From Candidatus Oscillochloris fontis (lineage in GTDB: Bacteria; Chloroflexota; Chloroflexia; Chloroflexales; Chloroflexaceae): 38,472 nucleotides of DNA. Each line of letters starts with the position of its first letter. The first letter of the stretch is position 1. The translations under genes and the position numbers were made by a program. The notes below the pieces were generated by a model. That model saw only the letters and a list, made by a program, of their open reading frames with translations, did no database searches and had not been told where the DNA came from. Location of the stretch: positions 1-38,472 of the forward strand of contig NZ_RYFD01000044.1 in NCBI RefSeq assembly GCF_004138135.1. The letters run 5' to 3'. This document shows, piece after piece, positions 24,883 through 33,148 of the stretch.

Positions 24883-24955
24883 GAGACGCAAGATTTTGCG
24901 AGACGCAAGATTTTGCGAGACGCAAGATTTTGCGAGACGCAAGATTTTGCGTCTC
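24883..24955. repeat. Tandem repeat, four 17-base units plus closing inverted half
   Basis: GAGACGCAAGATTTTGC is repeated four times without change (24883-24950), followed by GTCTC. The last unit plus GTCTC forms a perfect 9-bp hairpin. The array lies upstream of the E2 ribosome site and touches the stop codon (24955-24957) of the ATPase gene. Confidence 0.95.
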
Positions 24956-25941
24956 TAAAACTCGCCCGCAAAATGGCATGCCGCCCAATGCCCTTTGCGC
25001 TTCTCGGCAAATTCTGGGTCTTGCTCGCTACAGATCGGGCGCGCGATCCAGCAGCGCGGGTGGAAGCGGCAACCTGTGGGTGGGTTGATCGGGCTGGGGA
25101 CATCGCCCTGCAAGACGATCCGCTCGCGCCGGGCGGTCGGGTCGGGGTTGGGGATGGCCGAGATGAGTGCCTTGGTGTAGGGGTGGAGTGGCTCGCGGAA
25201 GAGATCTTCACGGCTGGCCAGTTCGACCATCTTGCCCAAGTACATCACGCCCACGCGGTCGGAGATGTGCTCAACCACACTTAGGTTGTGGGCAATGAAG
25301 AGGTAGGTTAGCCCAAATTCGCGTTGCAGGTTGCGCAGCAGATTGAGCACCTGGGATTGGATCGAGACATCGAGCGCACTCACTGGCTCGTCACAGACGA
25401 TCAGCTTGGGTTCCATAATCAGAGCGCGGGCGATGCCGATGCGCTGGCGCTGGCCGCCGGAGAACTCGTGAGGGAAGCGGTTGGTCTGGCTGGAGTGTAG
25501 TCCGACCTTCGCCAACACCTCGCGCACACGCTCCTGGCGCTCCTTGGGCGTGCCGATACCATGGATCACCAAGCCCTCGGCGACACTCTCGCCCACGGTG
25601 ATGCGCGGATCAAGTGAGGCATACGGGTCTTGAAAGACGATCTGCATATCGCGGCGTAGCGACTTCATCTGGCGACTACTCGCCTTGAGGACATCCTTGC
25701 CCTCAAAGAGCACCTCGCCCGATGTAGCCTGCTCCAAACGCAGAATCGTGCGCCCGGTGGTGGTTTTGCCACAGCCACTCTCGCCCACCAAGCCCAGCGT
25801 CTCCCCTTTGCGCACATGAAAATTCACCCCATCAACCGCCTTAACCGTAGCCACCGTATGGCGTAGGAGGCCACCCTTGATCGGGAAATATTTCTTCAGG
25901 TTATTGACTTCCAGCAGATGCTCACCATTCGCTACAGCCAT
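24955..25941 (-). CDS. dppF: Peptide ABC transporter ATP-binding protein (DppF/OppF type)
   Basis: This 328-residue ATPase powers peptide uptake. Walker A is G-E-S-G-C-G-K-T-T, the signature is F-S-G-G-Q-R-Q-R, Walker B is L-I-V-C-D-E-P with the D-loop S-A-L-D, and the C-terminal oligopeptide-transporter extension has [11 protein letters not shown] with cysteines that may bind an Fe-S cluster as in DppF. GAGGTGA before the ATG overlaps the stop of the preceding ATPase gene. It is last in the transporter operon. dpp versus opp naming is not resolved by sequence. Confidence 0.93.
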
Positions 25942-25947
25942 ACTGCA

Positions 25948-26949
25948 TCACCTCTTCTCGACATAGAGCCAGCAACGTACCCGCCGCCCATCGGCAAACT
26001 CCAGCATAGCTGGATCGTTCTCACACGCCGCAAAACGGTGGCTACAGCGTGAAGCAAAGCGGCAGCCGGTAGGCGGATTGATCAGACTGGGCACAGTACC
26101 CGGAATGACCTCCAACTCATCGCGCACCTGCCCCAGCATGGGCATCGAATTAAGCAAGCCCTGGGTGTAGGGATGTTTAGGGTCGGCAAAGAGCGCACGC
26201 ACACTGGCATATTCCACAATCTGCCCCGCATACATCACGGCGACACTATCGGCCATTTCGGCCACCACACCCATGTCGTGGGTAATCAGGATGATCGAGG
26301 TATTGATCTTCTCGCGCAGCGCACGCATCAGATCGAGGATCTGGGCCTGGATGGTGACATCGAGCGCCGTCGTTGGCTCGTCGGCGATCAGCAACTCCGG
26401 GTTGCAGGCAAGCGCCATGGCAATCATGACGCGCTGGCACTGGCCACCAGAGAGTTCGTGGGGATACTGTCGCATGCGTCGGTTGGGATCGGGCAAGCCA
26501 ACCATCGAGAGCAGTTCGCGGCAACGCCCATTGGCCTCTTCGCCCTTCAGCCCCTGGTGGATCTCCAACGTCTCGATGATCTGATCACCAACCCGAAAGA
26601 CCGGATTGAGCGCGGTAGTGGGTTGCTGGAAGATCATAGAGATGCGGTTGCCACGAATATGACGCATCTCCTCGTCATTCAGCGTCAGCAGATCCACCCC
26701 ATCAAAAAAGACCGTCCCCGCCACCACGCGCCCCGGTCGGCTCACCAGGCGCAGGATCGAGAGCGAGGTGACACTCTTACCGGAACCACTCTCACCCACA
26801 ATACCGAGCGTCTCGCCCCGATGCAACACAAGATCAATCCCATCAACCGCCTGAACCACCCCCTCCTCGGTAAAGAAGTGGGTCTTGAGACCCGTGACGC
26901 GCAGAATCTCCTGGGTTGGTTCGGCTGAACGGTGCGGTGCGGTCGTCAC
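25948..26949 (-). CDS. dppD: Peptide ABC transporter ATP-binding protein (DppD/OppD type)
   Basis: This 333-residue ATPase pairs with the DppF-like subunit. Walker A G-E-S-G-S-G-K-S, signature L-S-G-G-Q-C-Q-R and Walker B L-L-I-A-D-E-P-T-T-A-L-D are intact; the C-terminal P-P-T-G-C-R-F-A-S-R-C extension is present. The start is GTG at 26949, preceded by AAAGGAG, which overlaps the dppC stop. It ends six bases before the next gene. Confidence 0.93.
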   Translation of the reverse strand: MTTAPHRSAEPTQEILRVTGLKTHFFTEEGVVQAVDGIDLVLHRGETLGIVGESGSGKSVTSLSILRLVSRPGRVVAGTVFFDGVDLLTLNDEEMRHIRGNRISMIFQQPTTALNPVFRVGDQIIETLEIHQGLKGEEANGRCRELLSMVGLPDPNRRMRQYPHELSGGQCQRVMIAMALACNPELLIADEPTTALDVTIQAQILDLMRALREKINTSIILITHDMGVVAEMADSVAVMYAGQIVEYASVRALFADPKHPYTQGLLNSMPMLGQVRDELEVIPGTVPSLINPPTGCRFASRCSHRFAACENDPAMLEFADGRRVRCWLYVEKR

Positions 26950-26961
26950 AAAGGCTCTCCT

Positions 26962-27954
26962 TTAAGCACGCTGGTGCGGATCGAGTGCATCACGCAGGCC
27001 ATCGCCAATATAGTTGACCGCCATCGAACAGAGCAGGATAGGCAGAGTTGGGATGAGTGGCATCCAGGGGTGTTGGAACATAAAACTCTGGGCAAAGTTG
27101 ACCATATTGCCCCAGGTGGGGGTCGGATCTTGGATGCCAAAACCCAGCACACTGATCGCCGATTCGGCCACCAGGAAGGAATTCACATTCAGGGTGAAAT
27201 CAACGATCATCGGTGGCAGTGCATTGGGAAAGACATGGCGCGCCATAATACGAGCATTAGAAGCGCCCAGGGCACGCGAGGATTCGATATAGACATTCTC
27301 GCGGACTGAAAGCACCATCCCGCGCATCAGGCGGCATGTGCTGGTCCAACCGAGCAGCGCCAGCACCACAATGATCATAAAGATGATACGTGACTCACGT
27401 TCGGTGACAGCAAACGACCATGCCATAAACGCATTGAGAAAGCCAGGAATAGGGATGGCATTGATATTCTGCACCGCCACGGCGGAGAGAATGAGCAGGA
27501 TGGGTAGGGTGGGGAAACTAGCAACCACCTCTAGGGTGCGGCTGATCGCAATATCAACCCAACCACCGAAGTAGCCTGCCAACATGCCCAGTACGATTCC
27601 AATGGTTGAAGCGATGACCGTTGAAAAGATCGCCGTACCAAGCGAGGTTCGCGAGGCATACAGCAAGCGGGTGAAATAATCCCGTCCGAGATGGTCGGTA
27701 CCAAGCAGATGGAAGTCGCCATCACGATCCACACTCAACGGCGGCAAGGTGGTAGCGAAGATACGTGGAGCATCACGGGGGTAGGGGGCGATGAACGGGG
27801 CCAAGATTGCCAACAGTAAGAAGAAGCCGAGCACCCCAATCGAGATCATCGCGATCTTATGCTTGCGAAAGCGGCGCAGCACAATCGCCATTTGGCTCTC
27901 AGAGGGGCGCTTATCGGCCTCATCATTGGGAAGTGCCGTGGTGGTGGTTGCCAT
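26962..27954 (-). CDS. dppC: Peptide ABC transporter permease (DppC/OppC type)
   Basis: This 330-residue permease has an N-terminal cytoplasmic tail, a first helix at about 35-55, the OppC N-terminal region ending G-T-D-H-L-G-R-D, four or five further helices, and the EAA-like coupling loop E-S-S-R-A-L-G-A-S-N. The start ATG at 27954 has AGGAGG overlapping the stop of dppB, a sign of translational coupling. Confidence 0.93.
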   Translation of the reverse strand: MATTTTALPNDEADKRPSESQMAIVLRRFRKHKIAMISIGVLGFFLLLAILAPFIAPYPRDAPRIFATTLPPLSVDRDGDFHLLGTDHLGRDYFTRLLYASRTSLGTAIFSTVIASTIGIVLGMLAGYFGGWVDIAISRTLEVVASFPTLPILLILSAVAVQNINAIPIPGFLNAFMAWSFAVTERESRIIFMIIVVLALLGWTSTCRLMRGMVLSVRENVYIESSRALGASNARIMARHVFPNALPPMIVDFTLNVNSFLVAESAISVLGFGIQDPTPTWGNMVNFAQSFMFQHPWMPLIPTLPILLCSMAVNYIGDGLRDALDPHQRA

Positions 27955-27963
27955 ACACCCCTC

Positions 27964-29157
27964 CTACGAGATCCTGATACGCGGATCAACGATGGTATAG
28001 AGAATATCGGTGATCAGGATGCCCAAGAGGAGCAAGATCACATTGACAAACAGAATCGCCATAGCCACATTGTAGTCATTGCGTCCGAGCGCATCAATAA
28101 AGAGGCGTCCGATACCAGGCCAGTTGAAGACCGCTTCGGTGATCAGCGCACCGCCGAAGATGGTCGCCAACACCCCGGCCAGCAGCGTCACAAAGGGAAT
28201 GAGCGAGTTACGCAGGGCATGTTTGAGAATAACCACCTGCTCACGCACCCCTTTGGCACGGGCGGTACGGACATAATCTTGTTGCAGCACCTCTAACATA
28301 CTGCCACGCACAAAGCGGCTCCAACCGGCCAGATTGATGATGGTGAGCACCCCACACGGCATCAACACGCGCAAGAAGCGGTCGAGGAACGAACCCGCCT
28401 CGACCATTCCAATCAGGGGGATGGTGTAGTCACGCACGCCAACCGCATCACCGGGCGGCAAATAGGGTAAGCCAGCGCGTTGTGGCAGTACCGAGAAGAG
28501 CAGAATGAAGAAGATACCAAAGACAAAACTAGGCACTGAAGTCCCAATAAAGGCTATCGTAGTAGCAATATAGTCAAAACGCGAATACTGTTTGACGGCT
28601 GAATAGACCCCTAACGGCACCCCTAACAGAATAGCCAGCACAATCGAGCCACCCATGAGGTACAGGGTATAGGGCAAGCGCGACCAGATCAGATCGGTGA
28701 CGGGACGGCCACGCAACATCACCTGACTATCACCAAAATCGCCAAAGACCACCCCACGGCTCACCTTACGCCCTTCGAGATCGGCCAACGTGACCGTCTT
28801 TTCACAACCCTCTTCAACAATTTCAACCCGTCCATCGGGGTAGCGCAGGCGCACTTGGCCGGGAGTAGCACAGCCAACCACCCAATCCGCACCCACTGAG
28901 CCGAAGATCGGCCCCTTGGGCCAACCAACTAGCCAACGGCTAAAGCGAACGGGCATCGCGAGATCAAGTTCAAAGCGCTGCATCACGCGCTGAATATCTG
29001 ATTCGCGGATACGATTGGCACCACTATTCTGGCGCTCAGCGAGCAACACATCAATCGGGCCACCCGGTTGCACATAGAGCAAACCATACGAGAGCATGGC
29101 AGCAACAATCGTCACAAGGATCATTTGGAAGAGGCGTCGGATCAGAAAGGTTGTCAT
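27964..29157 (-). CDS. dppB: Peptide ABC transporter permease (DppB/OppB type) with enlarged extracytoplasmic loop
   Basis: This 397-residue permease is longer than the usual 305-340. The first helix is at about 9-29 and the OppB core begins near 150 with L-P-Y-T-L-Y-L. The EAA loop is R-T-A-R-A-K-G-V, and the C-terminus ends D-P-R-I-R-I-S. An extra segment of about 60 residues (about 76-135), with two cysteines and many charged residues, sits in the loop after the first helix, on the outer face where the binding protein docks. Start at 29157; the ribosome site is weak. It is separated from the binding-protein gene by 223 bases that contain repeat R3b. Confidence 0.9.
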   Translation of the reverse strand: MTTFLIRRLFQMILVTIVAAMLSYGLLYVQPGGPIDVLLAERQNSGANRIRESDIQRVMQRFELDLAMPVRFSRWLVGWPKGPIFGSVGADWVVGCATPGQVRLRYPDGRVEIVEEGCEKTVTLADLEGRKVSRGVVFGDFGDSQVMLRGRPVTDLIWSRLPYTLYLMGGSIVLAILLGVPLGVYSAVKQYSRFDYIATTIAFIGTSVPSFVFGIFFILLFSVLPQRAGLPYLPPGDAVGVRDYTIPLIGMVEAGSFLDRFLRVLMPCGVLTIINLAGWSRFVRGSMLEVLQQDYVRTARAKGVREQVVILKHALRNSLIPFVTLLAGVLATIFGGALITEAVFNWPGIGRLFIDALGRNDYNVAMAILFVNVILLLLGILITDILYTIVDPRIRIS

Positions 29158-29380: not shown

Positions 29381-31354
29381 CTACTTGACGAAGAGGTTCA
29401 TATCAACGTGCTCCCAGGTCGGGCTGGCAATCGTAAAGCCCTGCACCTCACCGGCCTCAGCGGCCTTAAGCACCGTCTCAACCTCAGCACCGGCCCCTAA
29501 GGTCTCGGTGCCCAACACGTCCACCTCACCGGTCAGCAACTGCGCCACGGCCTGCTGGGTGTCGGCGATGAACTTGATCACGATCTTCTTCACCTTCGGC
29601 TCACCACCGTAGTAGTTGGGGTTGGCGACAAAGGTCATGCTCTGACCCTTCTCCCAGCTCTCCAACACGTAGGGTCCGATGCTGAGCGGATCTTCGGTGA
29701 TCTCCAACACGCTCTCCCACTCACTGGCAGGCACATCAGCCAGCGTGCGGCCATCGGCCAGAACCTGGTGCGAAGGATACGCGCCCAGAGCATAGATCAT
29801 GTACTCTGGCCACTGCACACCCGGCAGGTAGGTGATGGTGTACGCGGAGTCGCTGGTGAACTCCACATCCTGACGCGACTCACAGACGCTCAGACTGACC
29901 GAACCCGACTCAGGATCGCAGTCAATCTTCTGCGCCAACTCGAAGTCGGCCGCCTTGAGTGGCTCACCATCTTCCCACTTGATGTCATCCTTGTAGGTGA
30001 AGGTGACCGCCAACTGCTTCATCGTGACCGTACCACTCTCGTAGGTGACGGTCTCGCCCGCAGCGTTGACGATCTCGACACCGGGGGCCAACTCGGCCGC
30101 TTCGCCAGCGGTGGTCCAAACCATATCACCAGCGGTGACTTCGACCTCATTGTTGACCGCGCCACCATTCTCCAGCGTCGGCAACTCGGTCAGCGCCTTG
30201 GGCTGGTAGTCGTAGCTATAGCTGGTGAAGGCCCAACCCTGCCCACCGTTATTGCCCGTCAGGTAGCCAGCCACACGCTGCACCGCCGAGCTCTCAATGA
30301 CGGTCCACATCGAGGCAGGCTCCTGGGTCAGACCGATAACGACCGTATCGCCATCGCTGACTTCCCACTCCTCGACATTCCCGGTCTGATACTCGGTCGG
30401 ATCGGGCTTGAAGTTGCTCAGACGGTTGGTAGCAGCAGCAGCCTCACTGCGGTTAAACAGGGGCAAGCTCACCATATCCTTGGTGAATTCCTGCTGGAAG
30501 ATGCCATACTGCTTGACACGTTCCTCGGTATCGAGGGTATTGTTGGCGGCAACAATCGCAGTACTTGCGGTCTGGTTGCACCAACCCATGTAGTTCTGGC
30601 CTTCCCAGTTGTTGCTGGGCAGAGGAATCTGGTTACAGGCATAGAGCGTATTGCCCTTGGGATCAGTCTCACCGACCCAGGCATACGCACCCAACTCAAA
30701 GTCGCGGCGGGCCAAGCCTGTGCTACTGCCGAACCACCACGAGCCAGGGGCATAGGTGGGGATAATCTGGATGCCACAGGCGGACATCTGCTGAATGAAG
30801 ACCGCCGACCACGTCTGGCGGAACTGGGCGTTGGTGGTGGTGAAGCTCAGCGAGAGTGGTTCGCCATCAGCGTTCTCACGCACCGAGGCACCCTCTGGCA
30901 ACGTCCAACCAGCCTCATCGAGCAACGCTGCACCCTTAGTAACATCGAAGGGGTAGGTCGTGATGCCCTCAGTCGCAGCGGCCCAATGGCCTTGGGGAAG
31001 GTTGGTATCCATAACCAATGCCAACTGCTCTTCCTCGCTCAACCAAGGATAGACCGAGGAGATCAGTTCGGGGCGGTTAGTGCAGTAGGCCATTGCCTGA
31101 CGCACCTTGGGATCACTCAGGATGGGGTGGGGGGTGCTAAAGGCTTCGCCAGCTACACCTGCACCGGGATCTGCATTGGGATCAGTGGTTGCCTCAACTA
31201 CCACAGTCTGGATTTCGGGGGCCGTCGTCTGCACGACAACCACCGTCTCTTTGATCGGAGCGGCTGCCGGGGCACCGCCACACGCCGCCAGCACCGGGGT
31301 GAGTAACCCCAGCGTCATCAACTTTGCAATCGAGCGTTTGGAGAACATAGTCAT
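29381..31354 (-). CDS. Peptide-binding lipoprotein (SBP_bac_5 family), apparently circularly permuted
   Basis: This 657-residue extracellular binding protein has a lipobox L-A-A-C (C25). After a short linker, residues 71-335 match what is normally the C-terminal half of the family (H-P-I-L-S-D-P-K-V-R-Q-A-M-A-Y-C, then L-L-D-E-A-G-W). Residues 336-657 match the normal N-terminal half (D-T-V-V-I-G-L-T-Q-E-P, D-I-K-W-E-D-G-E-P-L, G-P-Y-V-L-E-S-W, N-P-N-Y-Y-G-G, E-V-D-V-L) and stop at W-E-H-V-D-M-N-L-F-V-K, just where a normal protein would continue into H-P-I-L. The reading frame is open throughout. AAGGAGG before the ATG at 31354 sets the start. It is first in the operon, with a promoter at 31536-31564. 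Confidence 0.9.
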   Translation of the reverse strand: MTMFSKRSIAKLMTLGLLTPVLAACGGAPAAAPIKETVVVVQTTAPEIQTVVVEATTDPNADPGAGVAGEAFSTPHPILSDPKVRQAMAYCTNRPELISSVYPWLSEEEQLALVMDTNLPQGHWAAATEGITTYPFDVTKGAALLDEAGWTLPEGASVRENADGEPLSLSFTTTNAQFRQTWSAVFIQQMSACGIQIIPTYAPGSWWFGSSTGLARRDFELGAYAWVGETDPKGNTLYACNQIPLPSNNWEGQNYMGWCNQTASTAIVAANNTLDTEERVKQYGIFQQEFTKDMVSLPLFNRSEAAAATNRLSNFKPDPTEYQTGNVEEWEVSDGDTVVIGLTQEPASMWTVIESSAVQRVAGYLTGNNGGQGWAFTSYSYDYQPKALTELPTLENGGAVNNEVEVTAGDMVWTTAGEAAELAPGVEIVNAAGETVTYESGTVTMKQLAVTFTYKDDIKWEDGEPLKAADFELAQKIDCDPESGSVSLSVCESRQDVEFTSDSAYTITYLPGVQWPEYMIYALGAYPSHQVLADGRTLADVPASEWESVLEITEDPLSIGPYVLESWEKGQSMTFVANPNYYGGEPKVKKIVIKFIADTQQAVAQLLTGEVDVLGTETLGAGAEVETVLKAAEAGEVQGFTIASPTWEHVDMNLFVK

Positions 31355-31464
31355 CGTTGTTCGATCCTCCTTGACACAAACACAGATTCCGTCAACGTAC
31401 CGCATGGAACACCGGCACCATGAGGAAGGCCGATGGGTGGAGAGGTATACCCGACGATCACCTT

Positions 31465-31535: not shown

Positions 31536-31564
31536 AGTATACGGTGGAATAGTAGCGGTGTCAA
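31536..31564 (-). promoter_or_regulatory. Promoter of the peptide transporter operon
   Basis: On the minus strand TTGACA (31564-31559), a 17-base spacer and TATACT (31541-31536). The gene-free stretch 31355-31819 also contains the leader hairpin and the promoter of the divergent M20-like gene; nothing else is evident there. Confidence 0.82.
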
Positions 31565-31819: not shown

Positions 31820-33148
31820 GTGTCTGCTCCATCCCTGCCCATGACTGCAAAACTGGCCCAGTGCCTAAGCGCTCTCTGTGCGCAACCCACCGGTACTGGT
31901 CAGCTTGACGACCTCCGGGCAGGCGCGGAGATGGTGGCTGTCCAGTTACGTAGCATTGGGATGCACGTGCGTATGCTGAGCCATGAGGGTGCCCCGCTGG
32001 TGGTTGGCTACCGCCCCGGACGTAGCCCTCGCACCCTCTTGCTCTACCACCACTACGATACCGCCCCGCCCGGCCCCTGGCGCGATTGGTCGCACGAGCC
32101 GTTTCAACTCGCCGAACGGAGCGGGTACCTCTTTGGACGTGGGGTGGTCGCTGGTAAAGGGCCACTGGCCGCCCACATTCAAGCCCTGCACACGCTCATT
32201 CAAGAGGATGGCGATCTACCATGTGGGGTACGCATCGTCGTCGAGGGCCACGGCATCAGCGGGAGTTCACACCTCACAGAACTCCTCAACACCCACCGCG
32301 ATCTCTTCCAGGCTGATGCGTGTCTGGCCAGTCAGGGTGAACGTGATTCCCATGGCGCTCCGCTCTGTTATAGCGGGGCCAAGGGCTGGCTTCAGGTGCG
32401 CTTGCACGTCCAGGGTGGTCCCTACCCATTGCACGCCGGGATGGCCTCTATTCTGCGCAATCCGCTCTGGCGGCTCACATGGGCGCTTGGCTCGATCAAG
32501 GGTGATGATGAGGATATTCGTATCGAGGGCTTCTATGATAGCGTCGAAGGCCCTTCGCGAGCCGAAAACGCGCTGCTGCGCCTCATCCGCATTGATGAGG
32601 CGGGCCGTCTGCAAGCGTGGCAGAGTAAGGAGTTTCTCTTTGGGATGAGTGGTGCGGCACTGGTACGCGCCGAAACGACTCTGCCAACCTGCAACCTGAG
32701 CGCGATCTGTTGCGAGCCACATACCGATCTGGCCTTCATTCCCGCAACCGCCTCGGCAATTATTGATTTTCAGTTGGTGCCCAACCAACGCCCAGAGGTG
32801 GTCTTCGATCTCCTCTGTCGGTACCTAAACGAACGTGGCTTCAACGATGTTCTCGTCGAACGAATGCCCGGTGGCTATCCGCCGGCTCACCAACCCCCCG
32901 ATACCCCCTTCGTCCAACAAGTAGCCGACGCCGGCGCGGCACTCTATGGCAGCCCACTCCATACCGTCCCGACTGGCCCGCTCACCATCCCACTCCACAT
33001 CTTCGCCGAACACCTCGCGATCCCCATCGCCTCGGTAGGTATGAACCGCCCCGATAGTGCCATCTATGGCCCCGATGAGCATGCGCCGCTGGAGGATCTG
33101 ACTCGCCACGCCGCGCTGTTGAGTGAGTTGATGCTGCGGTTTGCCTAA
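31820..33148 (+). CDS. M20-family peptidase-like protein with missing catalytic residues
   Basis: This 442-residue protein has the fold pattern of M20 dipeptidases, including the lid-domain region and a late H in D-E-H-A-P-L-E-D. The first ligand motif is H78-Y-D80. However, in the G-R-G-x-x-D segment the bridging Asp is replaced (G-R-G-V-V-A111-G-K-G), the catalytic Glu-Glu pair is replaced by Gly-Ile (E-G-H-G145-I146-S-G-S), and the next acidic ligand region reads C-L-A-S-Q-G. It therefore probably does not hydrolyse peptides by the standard two-zinc mechanism. The start is GTG at 31820 with AGGAG seven bases upstream. It is divergent from the peptide transporter operon, so a binding or regulatory role for peptides is possible. 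Confidence 0.82.
   Translation: MSAPSLPMTAKLAQCLSALCAQPTGTGQLDDLRAGAEMVAVQLRSIGMHVRMLSHEGAPLVVGYRPGRSPRTLLLYHHYDTAPPGPWRDWSHEPFQLAERSGYLFGRGVVAGKGPLAAHIQALHTLIQEDGDLPCGVRIVVEGHGISGSSHLTELLNTHRDLFQADACLASQGERDSHGAPLCYSGAKGWLQVRLHVQGGPYPLHAGMASILRNPLWRLTWALGSIKGDDEDIRIEGFYDSVEGPSRAENALLRLIRIDEAGRLQAWQSKEFLFGMSGAALVRAETTLPTCNLSAICCEPHTDLAFIPATASAIIDFQLVPNQRPEVVFDLLCRYLNERGFNDVLVERMPGGYPPAHQPPDTPFVQQVADAGAALYGSPLHTVPTGPLTIPLHIFAEHLAIPIASVGMNRPDSAIYGPDEHAPLEDLTRHAALLSELMLRFA

Follow-up and report, generated by a model that had tools for sequence, protein, structure and literature searches.

The window analysed here, the whole stretch of 38,472 nucleotides from Candidatus Oscillochloris fontis, contains a gene whose product is very probably a functional substrate-binding lipoprotein with a natural circular permutation, serving an importer of the Dpp/Opp type (cluster C). 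The gene corresponds to an open frame at 29381-31405 of the minus strand and gives a protein of 674 aa from the first ATG, or of 657 aa from the ATG at 31354, where the original prediction had placed the start. It lies directly before dppBCDF, and the window thus holds the two permeases and the two ATPases with oligo_HPY domains by which a Dpp/Opp operon is recognized. The features of the locus are the following:

29381-31405, minus: permuted substrate-binding lipoprotein (dppA-like, SBP_bac_5), whole open frame, with PF00496 match
31283-31354, minus: signal peptide with lipobox LAAC, lipid Cys at residue 42 of 674, read from the sequence
31130-31282, minus: linker, about 50 residues long, between the lipid Cys and the point where the permuted fold starts, from sequence and AF2
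30356-31129, minus: the SBP_bac_5 half that normally comes second (domain III and the old C-terminus), placed first in this protein, from profiles and the 2d5w fit
30350-30364, minus: join EVSDG between EEW (old C-terminus) and DTVVIG (old N-terminus), from the sequence
29384-30349, minus: the SBP_bac_5 half that normally comes first (domains I and II), placed last in this protein and ending in WEHVDMNLFVK, from profiles
27964-29157, minus: DppB-type permease (BPD_transp_1), by domain match
28735-28923, minus: DppB insert, periplasmic, containing two conserved cysteines and predicted to form a long beta hairpin, from alignment and AF2
26962-27954, minus: DppC-type permease (BPD_transp_1, OppC_N), by domain match
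25948-26949, minus: DppD-type ATPase (ABC_tran, oligo_HPY), by domain match
24955-25941, minus: DppF-type ATPase (ABC_tran, oligo_HPY), by domain match
31820-33148, plus: divergent M20 peptidase gene, from context
31536-31564, minus: promoter-like site TTGACA-17-TATACT with 11 of 12 positions matching, some 180 bases upstream of the ATG at 31354

The original prediction had described a chain that begins with the second-half sequence of this class of proteins and reaches the usual beginning only at DTVVIG (residue 336 in its numbering, residue 353 of the 674-aa protein), and the frame and the profiles bear out this circular permutation. The segment HPILSDPKVRQA occupies residues 93-104 (76-87 in the earlier numbering), five residues stand between EEW, the old C-terminus, and DTVVIG, the old N-terminus, and the protein ends at WEHVDMNLFVK, whose counterpart in the normal-order proteins of loci L100 and L184 leads through a short stretch into a P-S-L-L or H-P-L-L segment. 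PF00496 aligns with the lipoprotein in two stretches whose order is reversed with respect to the usual N-to-C order of the domain, reaching 167.7 bits in all against a curated cut-off of 32.4 bits, and this reversed match is far above chance. The best stretch aligns residues 456-633 with profile positions 8-176, and a search at the DNA level assigns profile positions 167-359 to the first part of the protein (66.2 bits) and 8-176 to the second (101.9 bits). The NCBIfam profiles agree with the reversed order (best Opp4A stretch, residues 95-349 with positions 313-556), as does the sequence of the solved structure 2d5w, in which residues 96-332 correspond to 322-563 and residues 576-672 to 210-311. 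When the halves are put back in the usual order, a single PF00496 stretch is obtained, running from profile position 8 to 359 of 368 with 171.4 bits.

A confident AF2 model calculated from 50 permuted rows (mean pLDDT 86.8, pTM 0.83) is disordered in the first 45 mature residues, corresponding to the tether (pLDDT under 50). Residues 48-312 of the model fit 311-588 of 2d5w (Z 25.0, rmsd 2.1) and residues 51-296 fit 272-496 of 1dpe (Z 22.1), and the first half matches the C-lobe fold of Dpp/Opp/Nik-type cluster C proteins. The VIA rows are almost entirely confined to the first half, mostly residues 48-309 and barely past 309, which is what a permuted chain should give; for the second half, barely covered by that list, a cluster C N-lobe fold is suggested by the sequence profiles, which match PF00496. 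The Foldseek alignments are short and have low whole-chain TM-scores, again as expected for a permuted chain, and are uninformative on other folds. According to the available part of the EppA study, two antiparallel strands flank domain III in that protein, forming the hinge (PMC7312458). In the window protein, alignments and secondary structure suggest that the cut falls at the entry of the chain into domain III, next to one of two such strands, and one of the two covalent hinge links would therefore be missing and one should remain; likewise, the lipid tether would be on domain III instead of domain I. A disulfide specific to the permutation, between C108 and C210, was considered and rejected: both residues are present in 50 of 50 rows of the AF2 alignment and in 41 of 41 permuted rows, and each is also Cys in 7 of the 15 normal rows.

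In this protein, domain III (the C-lobe) follows directly on the lipid-anchored linker, five residues connect the old C-terminus with the old N-terminus, and the chain stops at the strand that normally enters domain III. The usual two-lobed clamp would be formed, with its lobes held by one covalent link together with the packing of the cut strand, and with the membrane tether on the opposite lobe from normal. The clamp would capture a peptide or peptide-like solute and pass it to DppBC, and DppD and DppF would power the uptake. A substrate of this kind is the most likely one because of the complete set of five genes, the oligo_HPY domains of the ATPases and the divergent M20 peptidase gene; the latter recurs beside the permuted genes of some relatives, but L111 and L117 have it near genes of normal order.

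This order, with an identical cut and a join of 5-6 residues, occurs in Chloroflexaceae, Roseiflexaceae and many Anaerolineae. Among 100 genomes (own and near relatives), 62 match the lipoprotein at E<=1e-40; 58 of them were counted as permuted and four (G053, G056, G063, G085) as normal-order matches only, the normal order having been read in L106, L100 and L107, and G056 giving a C-half match and no N-half match. At E<=1e-60, matches were obtained in 28 of 301 phylum genomes and in 35 of 249 genomes in the class of G104, and in 29 of these 35 a single stretch spans both halves (in the others the match is cut, broken or limited to one half). Short exact peptide patterns, searched for in the contigs of GTDB r220, yielded 57 loci, every one with a permuted row; such a scan reaches near relatives only, and the confinement of the permutation to Chloroflexota is thus unproven. 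By their titles, these loci belong to groups that we take to be Chloroflexota, with the exception of L096 ('Gracilibacteria'). Spread beyond the phylum was rejected in this case, because the protein length and match figures equal those of L016 of G021, placed in Chloroflexaceae, and the name looks like that of a mislabelled bin. A six-frame test of 99 loci, some of them overlapping, gave 89 permuted rows, 4 normal-order rows and 13 one-half matches, and a later profile test gave 96 permuted and 40 normal rows, which became 73 and 17 after short, over-long and duplicate rows had been dropped. Permuted genes split across frames, either by frameshift or by sequencing error, were seen at L110:6303-8343 (plus) and G330 C70:4553-6494, and the split gene in G038 sits in a single-contig genome.

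Of 78 permuted rows, 71 show a lipobox-like motif ahead of the first core motif. Among the rows without a match to the pattern, L087, L080, L038 and L098 start at a contig or frame edge, L084 has an LTAC that is visible in the sequence and was missed by the script, and none was seen in L102 and L104. The join has 5 residues in 26 of the 78 rows and 6 residues in 44, the pattern having missed eight rows, some of them cut. The original prediction, which regarded a permuted, open and operon-embedded binding protein as unusual, was right about the permutation and underestimated its extent: the gene belongs to a conserved family and is not a one-off.

When 41 permuted rows were placed in a tree with 15 normal ones, all the permuted ones fell on one side of one branch (SH-aLRT 100), with L100 next to it (90). 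The same branch was recovered in a second tree, to which L183 and L184 were added and from which the long-branch rows L104, L105 and L107 were left out, using the whole protein or each half alone (SH-aLRT 100, 99 and 100); these supports come from a quick method without bootstrap. Judging from the sequences, the permuted proteins are probably a conserved family of single origin. Comparison with five relatives gives a dN/dS of 0.16-0.24 (about 0.2), a rough value because dS is above 1, which at the codon level demonstrates purifying selection on the permuted gene. The permutation may have arisen, as had been proposed originally, through tandem duplication, fusion and loss of the outer halves, and the signal peptide retained at the front and the clean join between the old termini are compatible with this route; no duplicated intermediate was found among the relatives examined.

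Two candidates for traces of that process were discarded. The first is the normal-order gene upstream of the permuted one in some Anaerolineae, taken as the other product of the duplication: the copies of L079, L085, L089, L173 and L177 group with normal proteins, and according to the trees this gene is a distant relative and not the parent. The second is G488, permuted and devoid of the DppB insert, taken as an intermediate: its protein, L183, nests among Caldilineaceae-type permuted proteins (SH-aLRT 100). In this genome (L183:1358-10356, minus), the permuted protein is beside D and F, followed by another binding protein and by distant insert-less B and C. The permuted protein of L183 has apparently moved to a different permease, and by its sequence G488 looks like a later switch, with a long end branch (0.99) that makes the placement uncertain.

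The DppB encoded beside the permuted gene also has a peculiar structure. From the helix after the scoop region to the GDFG motif there are 58-70 aa in 60 of 62 DppB rows beside permuted genes (in the short-insert rows L032 and L054 the frames run to the contig end), 19-24 aa in five rows beside normal-order genes and 7-21 aa in eight other DppB rows. Among four rows beside one-half matches, those of L094 and L110, next to broken permuted genes, have 63-69 aa, and the other two have 7. The insert contains two cysteines that do not vary among 29 aligned DppB, and in an AF2 model of the 397-aa protein (mean pLDDT 78.8 overall) the insert is a long hairpin of strands 93-105 and 111-123, with one cysteine per strand, which might form a disulfide. 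The insert profile was found in 44 of 400 phylum genomes, 43 of which have the permuted gene; in the remaining one, G001, the contig ends just upstream of DppB. Conversely, the insert was found in 89 of 92 permuted genomes, chosen irrespective of the insert (58 own and near relatives, 8 from the phylum set and 26 from the class of G104; G379, G395 and G423, picked for carrying it, were left out), a figure that counts presence per genome and not adjacency, some partners lying on different contigs (e.g., G031, G465, G558). It was not found in G488 (97% complete), G011 (81%) and G020 (88%), and in the last of these the longest permuted copy ends 432 bases from the contig end and the permease may be cut off. 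The insert was absent as well from six normal-order or one-half genomes (G053, G056, G063, G085, G564, G599). When a DppB tree is calculated with the insert columns removed, the 24 rows with a long insert all fall together on one side (SH-aLRT 99), and L100 comes next (92); this tree agrees with the binding-protein tree, and the insert arose on the matching branch.

There is about an even chance that the permutation is neutral, the protein functioning just as a DppA of normal order does, and that the insert arose independently on that long branch and was inherited with the operon. Since each trait is a single change on the trees, their association amounts effectively to one data point, which fits this explanation, as do the three permuted genomes without a detected insert. 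On the other hand, the retention of the insert in the great majority of the permuted genomes tested and the invariance of its two cysteines argue against mere co-inheritance. Its location does so too: according to the available part of the E. coli study, the scoop motif of DppB, between TM1 and a short helix, enters the DppA cleft (PMC12136057), and the insert follows the scoop region by its position in the model, the window DppB and that of E. coli not having been aligned. A coupling of insert and permutation can be hypothesized, and it is conceivable, albeit rather doubtful, that the receptor-channel pair was rebuilt together, the hinge cut and the moved tether having changed the docking, and the DppB hairpin, stapled by its disulfide, serving to hold or open the clamp. 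If true, such a rebuilt pair would be a distinct way of coupling a binding protein and an importer.

The neighbourhood of the permuted genes bears on whether they still serve transport. Among the 57 loci of the scan, 39 have at least 5.5 kb downstream of the permuted gene, and in 34 of these it is followed by B, C, D, and F. The set is partial in L043 and L072, where D or F was not detected, and no DppB was found behind the permuted gene in L061, L062 and L063, which look like second copies because the operon is present in other loci of their record series (L051, L070, L094). It is quite improbable that the protein has left transport, becoming a sensor or a surface binding protein, with the permease being served by other binding proteins. 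The lack of a detected permease near the permuted paralogues L061, L062, L063, L102 and L103, the C-terminal extensions of L102 and L103, and a second, normal-order binding protein just upstream in L079, L085, L089, L173 and L177 would fit such a change, but the window gene has a lipobox and lies directly before dppBCDF, and the complete set follows in most loci with enough flank, where the search for further binding proteins would miss distant ones. The distant normal-order protein of those five upstream cases has the same direction and precedes one permease set, and in L175 the normal-order copy lies downstream, past DppB. Finally, an assembly error or misjoined duplicate copies, which the original prediction had named as a way to fail, can safely be set aside although the window comes from a draft genome split into 139 contigs, because the same order, cut and join appear in independent genomes, including the single-contig genomes G032, G035, G046 and G104, the chromosome CP059258 and named isolates such as Chloroflexus islandicus and Bellilinea caldifistulae.

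The permuted lipoprotein has a precedent in Tp0684 (MglB-2) of Treponema pallidum, a circularly permuted glucose-binding lipoprotein (PMC4990184). Both are natural permutations of lipid-anchored binding proteins of ABC importers, common to a family of relatives. However, Tp0684 has the Type I/cluster B sugar-binding fold and the window protein belongs to cluster C; the permutation of Tp0684 adds a fourth hinge crossing, whereas the window protein would lose one of two covalent links; and the available part of that paper describes no matching permease insert (PMC4990184). With respect to the Type Ic/cluster Bc group, the window protein shares the circular permutation but not the Type I/cluster B fold, given its PF00496 and cluster C matches. 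Both its halves match DppA/OppA/NikA-type cluster C proteins by sequence, and the first half also by fold; it differs from them in the order of the halves, the position of the termini and the lobe that is lipid-anchored. The E. coli DppABCDF system has the same five-gene plan and a periplasmic DppB segment between TM1 and the next helices, but a DppA of normal order, and no comparable hairpin is described in the available part of its report (PMC12136057). The closest normal-order relatives in the second tree are L100 (G063) and L184 (G564), which head A-B-C-D-F genes as well and differ in the order of the halves and in a DppB without insert; L100 is 50% identical to the permuted protein in the C-half and 34% in the N-half. 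No naturally permuted SBP_bac_5 protein was named in the titles or abstract openings among the matches listed, most subscription papers and all bioRxiv preprints being outside the scope of that search. A permuted binding lipoprotein as such has precedent; the DppB insert is new here, as is, within the scope of that search, the Dpp/Opp-class case. The interest of this natural and long-kept permutation in the cluster C (peptide) class, with the cut beside a hinge strand, is that it offers a way to test whether clamp opening and delivery are set by the two covalent hinge strands, by the lobe to which the tether is attached and by the contact with the permease, the L100 and L184 operons being a ready-made normal-order control.

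Several variants of the permuted protein were also observed. L102:5035-7500 (minus) and L103:5603-8185 (plus) encode permuted proteins of 822 and 861 aa with no permease detected nearby and with a C-terminal extension ending in LPIINR/LPLLHR, and their genomes (G037, G040) also have another permuted gene and an insert-bearing permease. Three further genes, L101:6431-7675 (minus), L187:5649-7016 (minus) and L185:5248-7554 (plus), contain only the domain III half and the last WEHIDxNL strand; from their sequences, they look like permuted proteins minus the other lobe. Their C-terminal extensions end in motifs such as LPMVMR, LPAVVR or LPLAIR, and L185 has two domain-III-half units in tandem.
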